DNA of 64,000 nt from Kaiparowitsia implicata GSE-PSE-MK54-09C (lineage in GTDB: Bacteria > Cyanobacteriota > Cyanobacteriia > Elainellales > Elainellaceae). The DNA lies in NCBI GenBank assembly GCA_019359435.1, contig JAHHHI010000089.1, forward strand, positions 1 to 64,000, in the 5' to 3' direction. The notes below the pieces were generated by a model that saw nothing but the letters and a program-made list of their open reading frames with translations, was not told the origin of the DNA and did no database searches. A program made the position numbers and the translations under genes. This document shows positions 42,703 to 58,184 of the stretch, one piece after another; position 1 is the stretch's first letter, and the number at the start of each line of letters is the position of its first letter.

Positions 42703-43161
42703 ATGCCGCCTTTCAAGCATGTTCTTGCTGGACACAAAATATCGGACTCGAGGCTCGACCCCTCAGTACAAGCTCTGACGCTGTCGGATATTCGCGCGCC
42801 GGACGCTCCACTTGTCTACGTGAACCGCGGCTTTGAGAAGATGACCGGTTATGAGCGGGCCGACGTCATCGGGCGCAATTGCCGTTTTCTGCAAGGGCCC
42901 GACACTAGCCGCGACGCAGTCATGCAAATGAGGGCTGCAATCGCAAATGGCGAATATCTTCTCCTTGACATGATCAACTATCGCAAGAATGGAACGTCGT
43001 TCTGGAATCGGCTTTCTCTTACCCCTGTGAAGGATCCATCAGGAGAAGTAACGCATTACATCGGCCTTCAAAGTGACATTACTCGAATGCGCTTTCTGCA
43101 AGAGCGTCTTCGGTCAATTGCACTTGCCCTTGTGGGCGCCGAGAAGCAAGTGCCTGACTGA
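42703..43161 (+). CDS. Short LOV (blue-light) photosensor protein
   Basis: 152 residues. A PAS fold with the LOV signature GRNCRFLQG at residues 57-65: Cys60 is the residue that forms the flavin adduct in blue light. The flavin-contacting stretch MINYRKNGTSFWNRLSL and the closing VTHYIGLQSDIT are also canonical. About 25 residues remain after the core (FLQERLRSIALALVGAE), enough for one J-alpha-like helix and no effector domain. It is therefore a short LOV protein that would signal through dimerisation or a partner. ATG 42703 has no strong ribosome site. Neighbours do not reveal the partner. Confidence 0.85.
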   Translation: MPPFKHVLAGHKISDSRLDPSVQALTLSDIRAPDAPLVYVNRGFEKMTGYERADVIGRNCRFLQGPDTSRDAVMQMRAAIANGEYLLLDMINYRKNGTSFWNRLSLTPVKDPSGEVTHYIGLQSDITRMRFLQERLRSIALALVGAEKQVPD

Positions 43162-43961: not shown

Positions 43962-45662
43962 TCAGAATGGAACCTCTTCATGCGTGGCGCGTCGAAACAG
44001 GGCCGCAGCCACGAGCCATAACAAGGTGAAAAACCCGGTAGCAGAGATGAGACGCAGGATTGTGGTGGCTTGGATGATCCCCGCCCCAGCAATCAGCGCA
44101 ATTGCGGCAACGGCGATCTGGCCGGCTGCTACAACCAACAATGCTCGCACCATACCCTCGGGCGCGAACCGTGCTTGCGCTGATACTAGTGCGCCCCCGC
44201 CCAAAGTGGCAAAATAAAGCAGATTGAAGCTGTTGCCCTCACTGCCGATCACGCCGACTGCCGCGATCACCCAGATCAGCAGGAAGCTGGTTCCCAGTGC
44301 AACCACTAGGCCCGCGCGGTAAAATAGGCTGGCGTTCCACGTGAGCGCGACTTCGAACATTAATCCAAAGCTGGTTAGCATGGCGGCCAGCCACAAGAAA
44401 TCCTCAGCGCCCCAGTTCATCTCATCGGATAGTTGCATGGCTAGAAAGGGCAGCAGCAGCACCAGCGCCGCTGCTAGCCAGCGAGCCATCCGCCAACGAT
44501 ATCGTACAAGCCAACCTGCTATCTCTGTCGCCATAATGGTCCTCCATGGGACAGTATCTGGCAGACTTATCGCGTGGGTGCCGATGCTGGCATGATGAAA
44601 ATGTGAGTGTTGTGTGAGATGGCGCGTTTTTCTCCAGCCGCACAGCCCGGCCGCGAGGCCGGCGCCAAACACCAGCCCTTCCACCGCGGCAAGCATCAAT
44701 TCTGCGGAAAGTGGCAGCCGGTCTAGCGGCACGAAAGGGCGCAGCCGACCCAGTGGGAGGTCGGACGCAAGCAGCGCGGCTGCCAGGCTGTCGAGACTGC
44801 CCGCCATCATCTGACCACCGACTGAGACAATCAGCACCGAAGCCACGGCACAGGCGATTGCAGTCCGGCCAATCTGGTGGATGGCAGGTCCGCCGAAAAT
44901 AAGTGCCTGTCCGATGGCACCGCCCAACACCACCCCCTCCCATGCGCCCGTAATCCTCTCCGGTGCAACCCCTAGCACCAAGGCGAAAGCATCATGTCCG
45001 ATGAGGTTGGACAGGCTGCCCACGATTAGCCCGCCTGCGGTCGCGCCCATCACCGCCTGCCACGGGTGCGAGATCCGGCCGCCCAGCGCTAGACCGATGC
45101 TGACAAACAGGCCCCCCAGGCTCCCGACCAGCACGCACAGCATCACAACAGAGACAAGGACCAGCACCGCCCCCGTCGCTGGGGTAGCCCGCGCAAGGGC
45201 TAAGGCGTAGCCATAGATTAGCCCACCAAGGAGGCCGGCGCCCGCTCCGCCGATCATTCCTGCCAGTGCGATTTCCACCGTTGGCAGGAAGCCCGTCTGC
45301 GTCTGTAGTTGCCGTTGTGCCGCGGCGGTCTCGCCGCGCCCGGCGTCGCCAGCCGAGACCGGGGCTATAAATCGATAACCATGCTTGGGCACTGTTACGA
45401 TGAAACGCGGCTGGCGGACGTCATCACCCAGCACTCGCCGGAGTGTCTTAATGCACTGCGTCAGCGCTTCGTCGCCGACTACCACGCCGTTCCAGACTAT
45501 TTCGAAGAAGTCGTCCTTGCTGACCAACTGCCCTTGCTTGTTCAGCAGCAGCACAAGTACGTCGAAATACCGTGGGTTGAGCTTGATCACTGTACCGTTA
45601 CGCCGCAATTGACGTTGATCAAGGTTCAGCTGAAATTCCTCGAATTCGAAAGTCCGCGACAT
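43962..45662 (-). CDS. Winged-helix (OmpR/ToxR-type) regulator fused to a large polytopic membrane domain
   Basis: 566 residues. Residues 1-100 are an OmpR-type winged helix (FEFEEFQLNLDQRQLRRNG, LNPRYFDVLVLLLN, DEALTQCIKTLRRVLGDD, ending FIVTVPKHGYRFIAP). From about residue 120 come some 6 membrane helices rich in Gly/Ala (MIGGAGAGLLGGLIYGY, LVSVVMLCVLVGSLGGLFVSIG). A second block of about 5 helices begins at residue 377 (MATEIAGWLVRYRWRM). GGGGGAGGT precedes ATG 45662. An in-frame internal ATG at 44534 has its own GGAGGA, suggesting a separate product of 190 residues. A ToxR-like one-component membrane sensor is likely; the signal is unknown. Confidence 0.8.
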   Translation of the reverse strand: MSRTFEFEEFQLNLDQRQLRRNGTVIKLNPRYFDVLVLLLNKQGQLVSKDDFFEIVWNGVVVGDEALTQCIKTLRRVLGDDVRQPRFIVTVPKHGYRFIAPVSAGDAGRGETAAAQRQLQTQTGFLPTVEIALAGMIGGAGAGLLGGLIYGYALALARATPATGAVLVLVSVVMLCVLVGSLGGLFVSIGLALGGRISHPWQAVMGATAGGLIVGSLSNLIGHDAFALVLGVAPERITGAWEGVVLGGAIGQALIFGGPAIHQIGRTAIACAVASVLIVSVGGQMMAGSLDSLAAALLASDLPLGRLRPFVPLDRLPLSAELMLAAVEGLVFGAGLAAGLCGWRKTRHLTQHSHFHHASIGTHAISLPDTVPWRTIMATEIAGWLVRYRWRMARWLAAALVLLLPFLAMQLSDEMNWGAEDFLWLAAMLTSFGLMFEVALTWNASLFYRAGLVVALGTSFLLIWVIAAVGVIGSEGNSFNLLYFATLGGGALVSAQARFAPEGMVRALLVVAAGQIAVAAIALIAGAGIIQATTILRLISATGFFTLLWLVAAALFRRATHEEVPF

Positions 45663-45762
45663 ACCTCCCCCGTTCGTCGAGCTCACGGATAAATACTCCA
45701 CCCCGCAAACGGATACAGCGTCACCAGACCTAACGTCGGATTCTGCATCTCCGCAATGAAAC

Positions 45763-57272: not shown

Positions 57273-57503
57273 GGCCCATCGTTGCCAAAGGCCGCCTGTC
57301 TGTTTTCACCCTATCAAAGCCTCTGCCACCATAACGCGATGCCGACAGTGACCTAAACCAGAAGGGGCCGCTCAGCTTGCGGTTCGTAAAGGTTTTGGCA
57401 TAGTTGAGTCGTTGCGTAACTGGCGAACGAGATGGGCAACCATCGGGAAGCGCAACCTTGTGGTGCCGCTCGCCTGGGCAACTCCATCAATTGGATGATG
57501 CCC

Positions 57504-58184
57504 ATGCACGTGACCATGCTCCTCTATCCACGCCTAACGCAGCTTGACCTTACCGGCCCGTTTGAGGTCTTCGCTCACGTTCCCGGCGTGACGATCGATT
57601 TGGTCTGGAAGGAACGCGGGGGGCTTGTAGACGCTTCAGGCCTGCACCTGTTTGCCACTCATGCTTTTCACGATGCGCCGCCGACTGACGTACTTTTTGT
57701 GCCCGGCGGGCCGGGGCAACTGGCATTGATGGACGACGCAGAAACGCTCACCTTCCTCCGCAAAAGGGCAGAGCAGGCCAAATTCGTTACATCCGTCTGC
57801 ACGGGATCCCTCGTTCTGGCGGCCGCTGGATTGTTGCAGGGCTATCGGGCGACCTGCCACTGGATGTCACTGTCTCAGCTTGAAGTGCTGGGATCAGTAC
57901 CGGTTCAGGAACGTGTAGTCGTGGATCGCAATCGCGTAACGGGGGCGGGGGTGACGTCGGGGATCGATTTTGCCCTTGCATTGGTGGCTACAATTTTCGG
58001 CGAAGAACGTGCACGGCTCATCCAGTTGTCTATGGAATACGATCCCCAGCCGCCGTTCCTGGGTGGTTCTGTTTCCAAGGCCGACCCGACGCATGTCGAG
58101 CAATTGCAAACGATGGCCGCGGGCTTTCAGAAAAAGCGTGAGTTCGCGGCGAGGATGGCGAGCAAGGCCCTCAGATTAGTCTAA
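57504..58184 (+). CDS. DJ-1/PfpI family protein, isonitrile hydratase-like
   Basis: 226 residues. LLYPRLTQLDLTGPFEVFAHVPGV is the start of the isonitrile hydratase/GATase-1 like group, with the conserved Glu in GPFEVF. FVPGGPGQLALMDD and the nucleophile elbow TSVCTGSLVLAAAGLL (Cys99) follow, then RATCHWMS and the RVTGAGVTSGIDFALALVATIFGEERARLIQLSMEYDPQPPF ending typical of the family. It could hydrate isonitriles to N-formamides or act otherwise on small molecules. The start is uncertain: ATGs at 57432, 57495, 57498 and 57504 are in frame; I took the one matching family length. Confidence 0.82.
   Translation: MHVTMLLYPRLTQLDLTGPFEVFAHVPGVTIDLVWKERGGLVDASGLHLFATHAFHDAPPTDVLFVPGGPGQLALMDDAETLTFLRKRAEQAKFVTSVCTGSLVLAAAGLLQGYRATCHWMSLSQLEVLGSVPVQERVVVDRNRVTGAGVTSGIDFALALVATIFGEERARLIQLSMEYDPQPPFLGGSVSKADPTHVEQLQTMAAGFQKKREFAARMASKALRLV

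Follow-up and report, generated by a model that had tools for sequence, protein, structure and literature searches.

A naturally fused gene for a polytopic winged-helix regulator and its putative membrane partner in a Devosia-like contig

Signal sensing by membrane-bound transcription factors is poorly understood, and the most studied of these proteins possess one membrane helix and a periplasmic domain. The stretch of DNA analyzed here (64,000 nucleotides of a contig from the Kaiparowitsia implicata GSE-PSE-MK54-09C assembly; hereafter, the window) contains a gene of a different kind, in which an OmpR-type DNA-binding domain is followed by two successive blocks of membrane helices. The question raised by this locus is whether the second block is a partner of the regulator, a target under its control or an accidental appendage, and whether the gene yields one product or two. 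The gene is a minus-strand ORF (45662-43962) that opens with the ATG at 45662 and encodes 566 amino acids; its features are as follows.

43962..45662, minus strand: the fused gene, 566 aa, consisting of the winged helix, the six-helix block B1, a linker and the six-helix block B2; the ORF is continuous also in the Devosia locus L113
45369..45593, minus strand: OmpR-type winged-helix DNA-binding domain, residues 24-98 (PF00486, E 8e-16)
45285..45350, minus strand: variable linker 1 between the winged helix and the membrane, residues 105-126 (pN/pS 1.07, 23% amino acid identity to L113)
44613..45284, minus strand: membrane block B1, residues 127-350, six predicted helices, glycine-rich (from hydropathy; conserved in separate B1 genes, omega 0.22)
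44535..44612, minus strand: linker 2, residues 351-376, basic and predicted to be cytoplasmic, running from B1 into B2 in an open frame (neither fused gene has an indel or a stop here)
44541..44545, minus strand: internal Shine-Dalgarno-like GGAGG, 6 nt 5' of the ATG at 44534 (motif and spacing alike in L113)
44532..44534, minus strand: internal in-frame start codon ATG, codon 377 (TTG in L113), aligned with the point at which the separately encoded B2 of L112 and of L114 begins
43965..44534, minus strand: membrane block B2, 190 residues, six predicted helices (homologous to standalone proteins, omega 0.17)

The order of an OmpR-type winged helix and two multi-helix blocks, proposed in a preliminary description made from the sequence alone, is borne out by the match to PF00486 (Trans_reg_C; residues 24-98, E 8e-16) and by hydropathy; the helix count given there, about 11, is to be raised to 12. 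The hydropathy scan detects six hydrophobic segments on either side of residue 377, spanning residues 131-340 in B1 and 395-556 in B2, and the same 6+6 pattern is seen in L113. The 54-residue stretch between the B1 and B2 segments is basic (8 K+R vs 2 D+E), and this positive-inside pattern agrees with placement of both the linker and the winged helix in the cytoplasm; the longest predicted outside loop of the fused protein is about 34 residues. Among solved structures, the DNA-binding domains of CadC and ToxR are closest in sequence to the window winged helix. Neither membrane block matches a Pfam or NCBIfam model at the cut-off, and no solved relative was found for either; the match of B1 to NDUFA11 (E ~0.07) is too weak to use, and an AlphaFold2 model of the window protein alone does not reach a usable quality (mean pLDDT 42.6). 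The possibility that B2 is a duplicate of B1 is not supported (profile comparison probability 0.5%). B1 itself (44613-45284) may consist of two repeated three-helix halves: the half-vs-half profile comparison gives a probability of 24% vs at most 0.6% with shuffled columns, in a short, shifted register, and the BLAST and profile hints disagree on the register. At the main start, 45662 (minus strand), only 1 nt separates an SD-like GGAGG from the ATG, a spacing shorter than is normally considered workable, and an in-frame GTG is present upstream at 45701. It is thus uncertain where the protein really begins, in contrast to the internal start, whose spacing is good.

The source of the contig bears on how far the ORF itself can be trusted. 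The assembly carries genes for the photosystem II proteins CP43 and CP47 and thus comes from a cyanobacterium, but the 5-aminolevulinate synthase encoded in the window is 90% identical to those of Devosia riboflavina and a Devosia MAG. To our knowledge, cyanobacteria normally lack this enzyme. Given these observations and the contamination rating of the assembly (4.4%), the window contig (1-64000) is probably Devosia-like alphaproteobacterial contamination in a cyanobacterial assembly. A contaminant contig invites the suspicion that a sequencing or assembly error has lost a stop codon and joined two separate genes. This explanation can be dismissed, its probability being negligible, because the same continuous ORF, including the indel-free linker, is present in an independent Devosia genome (L113, Devosia G454), where it encodes 568 aa from the matching ATG with about 70% amino acid identity over the full length. 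Two other features of the window are recorded here: a ZMP/ZTP riboswitch (57406-57486, plus strand, 59.2 bits) located where a DJ-1/PfpI-like ORF (57432-58184) begins, apparently an atypical target for riboswitches of this class, and, near the fused gene, a small protein of 152 aa that is LOV-like (PAS) as judged by eye (42703-43161, plus strand).

Relatives were sought first among cyanobacteria and then around Devosia oryzisoli (G427). B1 is encoded in four of 75 genomes of the genus Devosia; no B1 relatives were found among the viral contigs searched, and a whole-protein scan of named genomes gave no match. Among the B1/B2 loci compared, the fused state is seen in the window and L113 only. 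Elsewhere, B1 and B2 are separate genes: divergent in the Devosia loci L112 and L114 and in another alphaproteobacterium (L122), and tandem, B2 then B1, in a further Devosia locus (L115). The divergent arrangement, the commonest one (tandem occurs once), also extends to two sphingomonad plasmids, both typed as conjugative. In Rhizorhabdus wittichii pSWIT01, the genes for Swit_5304 (annotated as 'transcriptional regulator, CadC') and Swit_5303 (hypothetical) are 86 bp apart, as are B1 and B2 in Sphingomonas bisphenolicum pBAR3. Swit_5304 and Swit_5303 align with B1 and B2 of the window gene, respectively, and are their homologs, but are encoded by two separate divergent genes; we found no paper that names this pair. 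The B1/B2 cassette is defined in this work by a B1 with a winged helix and a glycine-rich six-helix block and a B2 of six helices with conserved VG..G and N, and the window gene falls under this definition.

A full-length B2 was detected in 6 of the 10 genomes with B1 vs none of the 67 without B1 (Fisher p 9e-7, in a test that treats related genomes as independent). No neighbor other than B2 was common to B1 genes in 19-20 kb regions of five genomes, as judged by eye from ORF lists. The association is not strict: for five B1 homologs (L117-L119, L120-L121) there is no B2 within 1.5 kb, and no B2 at all was detected in three of these genomes, so that B2 is evidently not essential to B1 in general. 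The B2-like match of L130 (G447) is interrupted by two stops, and the short B2-like forms of L131-L135 retain no more than roughly the first 100 residues; these remnants suggest that B2 has been lost or shortened in some lineages. In two of the alphaproteobacterial loci with a B2-less B1 regulator (L120, L121), this gene is convergent with an lpxB-like gene, and the two ends share about 4 bases.

The existence of separate blocks that are genetically linked in several lineages, which the preliminary description had named as the check to be made in relatives, provides good support for a gene fusion. The fusion that it proposed therefore stands; the claim that the fusion is recent does not, because the fused state is shared with L113 at about 70% amino acid identity and dS of ~0.85. 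The window gene and L113 form a pair with 100/100 support in the B1 tree and 99/100 in the B2 tree, and the nearest B1 to this pair is that of the tandem L115 locus, with moderate support (81/85, B1 tree). A single fusion in the common ancestor of the window gene and L113 would be the simplest history.

A fusion of this age might be a non-functional or decaying read-through product, a possibility to which linker 2 lends some substance, being poorly conserved: omega is about 0.55, and pN/pS for residues 351-388 is 0.66, with a bootstrap interval of 0.41-1.24. Linker 1 is even less constrained (omega ~1.1). However, the values for the winged helix (0.16), B1 (0.22) and B2 (0.17) in the comparison of the window gene with L113 are far from neutrality, and the linker alignment runs without an indel up to one codon just past the B2 start. 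In a neutral 114-nt linker at dS of ~0.85, several indels would be expected under assumed indel rates, yet such a linker would often be stop-free by chance. On these ratios, both halves of the fused gene are under purifying selection, and a dead fusion is highly unlikely.

B2 is also found next to regulators of another family. In all six loci that encode long B2 relatives in cyanobacteria (L023-L028), a PadR-family gene lies directly 5' of B2, overlapping or abutting it, with four bases shared by the two frames in L028; PadR membership comes from PF03551 in the three proteins tested and from 82-95% identity in the others. The same order, a PadR-family gene directly before a B2 relative, occurs on Allocoleopsis franciscana pMIC7113.05. 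These pairs resemble the window gene in that a B2 homolog is paired with a winged-helix regulator and differ from it in that the regulator is of the PadR type, without membrane helices, the B2 protein has an extra N-terminal segment, and the ORFs overlap or abut rather than being fused. No regulator adjoins the B2 homolog of Sinorhizobium meliloti pSymB or the short (119-aa) cyanobacterial forms. The PadR-adjacent loci suggest that B2 repeatedly travels with winged-helix regulators; our literature search found no paper on PadR with a permease-prefix protein.

Taken together, these findings lead us to favor, with some reserve, the view that the locus encodes a polytopic two-part transcription regulator cassette, in which B2 is the partner of B1 and the two genes have been naturally fused into one chain. 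Under this model, B1 would be a membrane-embedded transcription factor with a cytoplasmic OmpR-type winged helix tethered to six membrane helices, and B2 a six-helix protein adjoining B1 in the membrane, where it may either sense a membrane or envelope condition or stabilize B1 and thereby control the action of the winged helix at its promoter. In the Devosia lineage of the window, the B1 frame runs into B2, which would give one 12-helix chain with a 1:1 ratio of the two parts and with the winged helix, the middle linker and the C-terminus all predicted to be cytoplasmic. The fusion, shared ancestry, linkage, constraint and predicted topology are read from the sequences themselves; DNA binding by the winged helix would follow from its domain family; contact between B1 and B2, sensing and target genes are what we infer. 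The combined observations suggest that B1 and B2 cooperate to switch genes on or off.

In the main rival to the partner model, B2 would be what the regulator controls, a target or effector such as a stress-response or transport protein: the neighboring regulator would simply govern its transcription, and the fusion would be accidental or autoregulatory. Divergent regulator-target pairs are common in bacteria, and PadR regulators usually control the adjoining gene; accordingly, both the divergence that is the commonest layout of separate B1 and B2 genes and the position of B2 after PadR in cyanobacteria agree with this interpretation. Yet fusion leaves the regulator no way to control transcription of the target separately from its own, and both halves nevertheless stay constrained; furthermore, the regulator B1 is itself a membrane protein. 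We regard an effector role of B2 as clearly the less probable interpretation, albeit one with a real chance of being correct.

The partner model is compatible with one gene giving two products, that is, with an internal start that yields free B2 in addition to the full fusion; the latter must arise if the gene is translated because there is no stop between B1 and the end of B2. The in-frame ATG at 44534 preceded by GGAGGA at good spacing, from which the preliminary description had derived such a second product, is indeed there: GGAGG is separated from the ATG by a 6-nt spacer, and the duplex with the anti-Shine-Dalgarno sequence is estimated at -9.3 kcal/mol. A strong Shine-Dalgarno motif precedes 10 of the 394 internal in-frame NTG codons (ATG, GTG or TTG) in 12 window genes, so that such a site is unusual without being singular; besides 44534, two of these ten fall within the fused gene itself. 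The site at 44534 stands above chance because, in the alignment, it lies where the separately encoded B2 proteins of L112 and L114 begin. In L113, GGAGG and its spacing are identical, so that a well-placed motif is present in both fused genes, but the codon is TTG instead of ATG, a weaker start. The 9-nt identical run at the motif is about what chance predicts for a 67% identical linker, as estimated from substitution counts, and is not counted as selection. This pattern would be expected whether the start is still in use or is a fossil, and the fused sequences that can be compared are just two. Two products from one gene are accordingly a tentative proposition, with the odds against it. A broader and still more doubtful variant is that B2 serves as a membrane partner for different winged-helix regulators, OmpR-type membrane proteins and PadR-type ones alike, and that an internal start kept in the gene for the 12-helix chain of Devosia still yields a certain amount of free partner, which would set the ratio of fused to free protein.

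Gene fusion is strong evidence of a functional, probably physical, partnership, and in this case it assigns a partner to a family of uncharacterized multi-helix regulators. B1-type regulators with multiple helices occur on chromosomes and conjugative plasmids, and B2 ties them to the cyanobacterial PadR systems; the B1-B2 pairing is directly testable using the separate genes.

The fused protein combines, in one chain, a predicted DNA-binding domain (PF00486) with 12 hydrophobic segments and thus belongs with the transmembrane transcription regulators, which are defined by such a domain and at least one TM region in the same protein. Among these regulators, 56% are single-pass, 17% have two TM regions and 27% have more, up to 22 (PMC10269533). 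The statement in the preliminary description that ToxR-like regulators usually have one helix holds for the best-known examples, but the 27% of transmembrane regulators with more than two TM regions should be kept in mind. With the ToxR/CadC type (PMC10269533), the window protein shares the N-terminal OmpR/PhoB-type winged helix on a membrane anchor; it differs from that type in having 12 predicted helices (6+6) instead of a single TM helix followed by a periplasmic sensor domain, and in its second, fused membrane block. VtrA/VtrC and ToxR/ToxS (PMC9214523) offer a second parallel, in that the gene for a membrane winged-helix factor is paired with a gene for a second, membrane-associated protein. 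In those co-component systems, regulator and partner form an obligate heterodimer; the partner is encoded downstream in tandem, often overlapping, and combines a single TM helix with a lipocalin-like periplasmic sensor domain, whereas B2 has six predicted helices with short loops, and the B1 and B2 genes are usually divergent, once in reverse tandem and fused in the window. The window system is therefore best read as a probable analog, rather than a member, of ToxR/ToxS or VtrA/VtrC.
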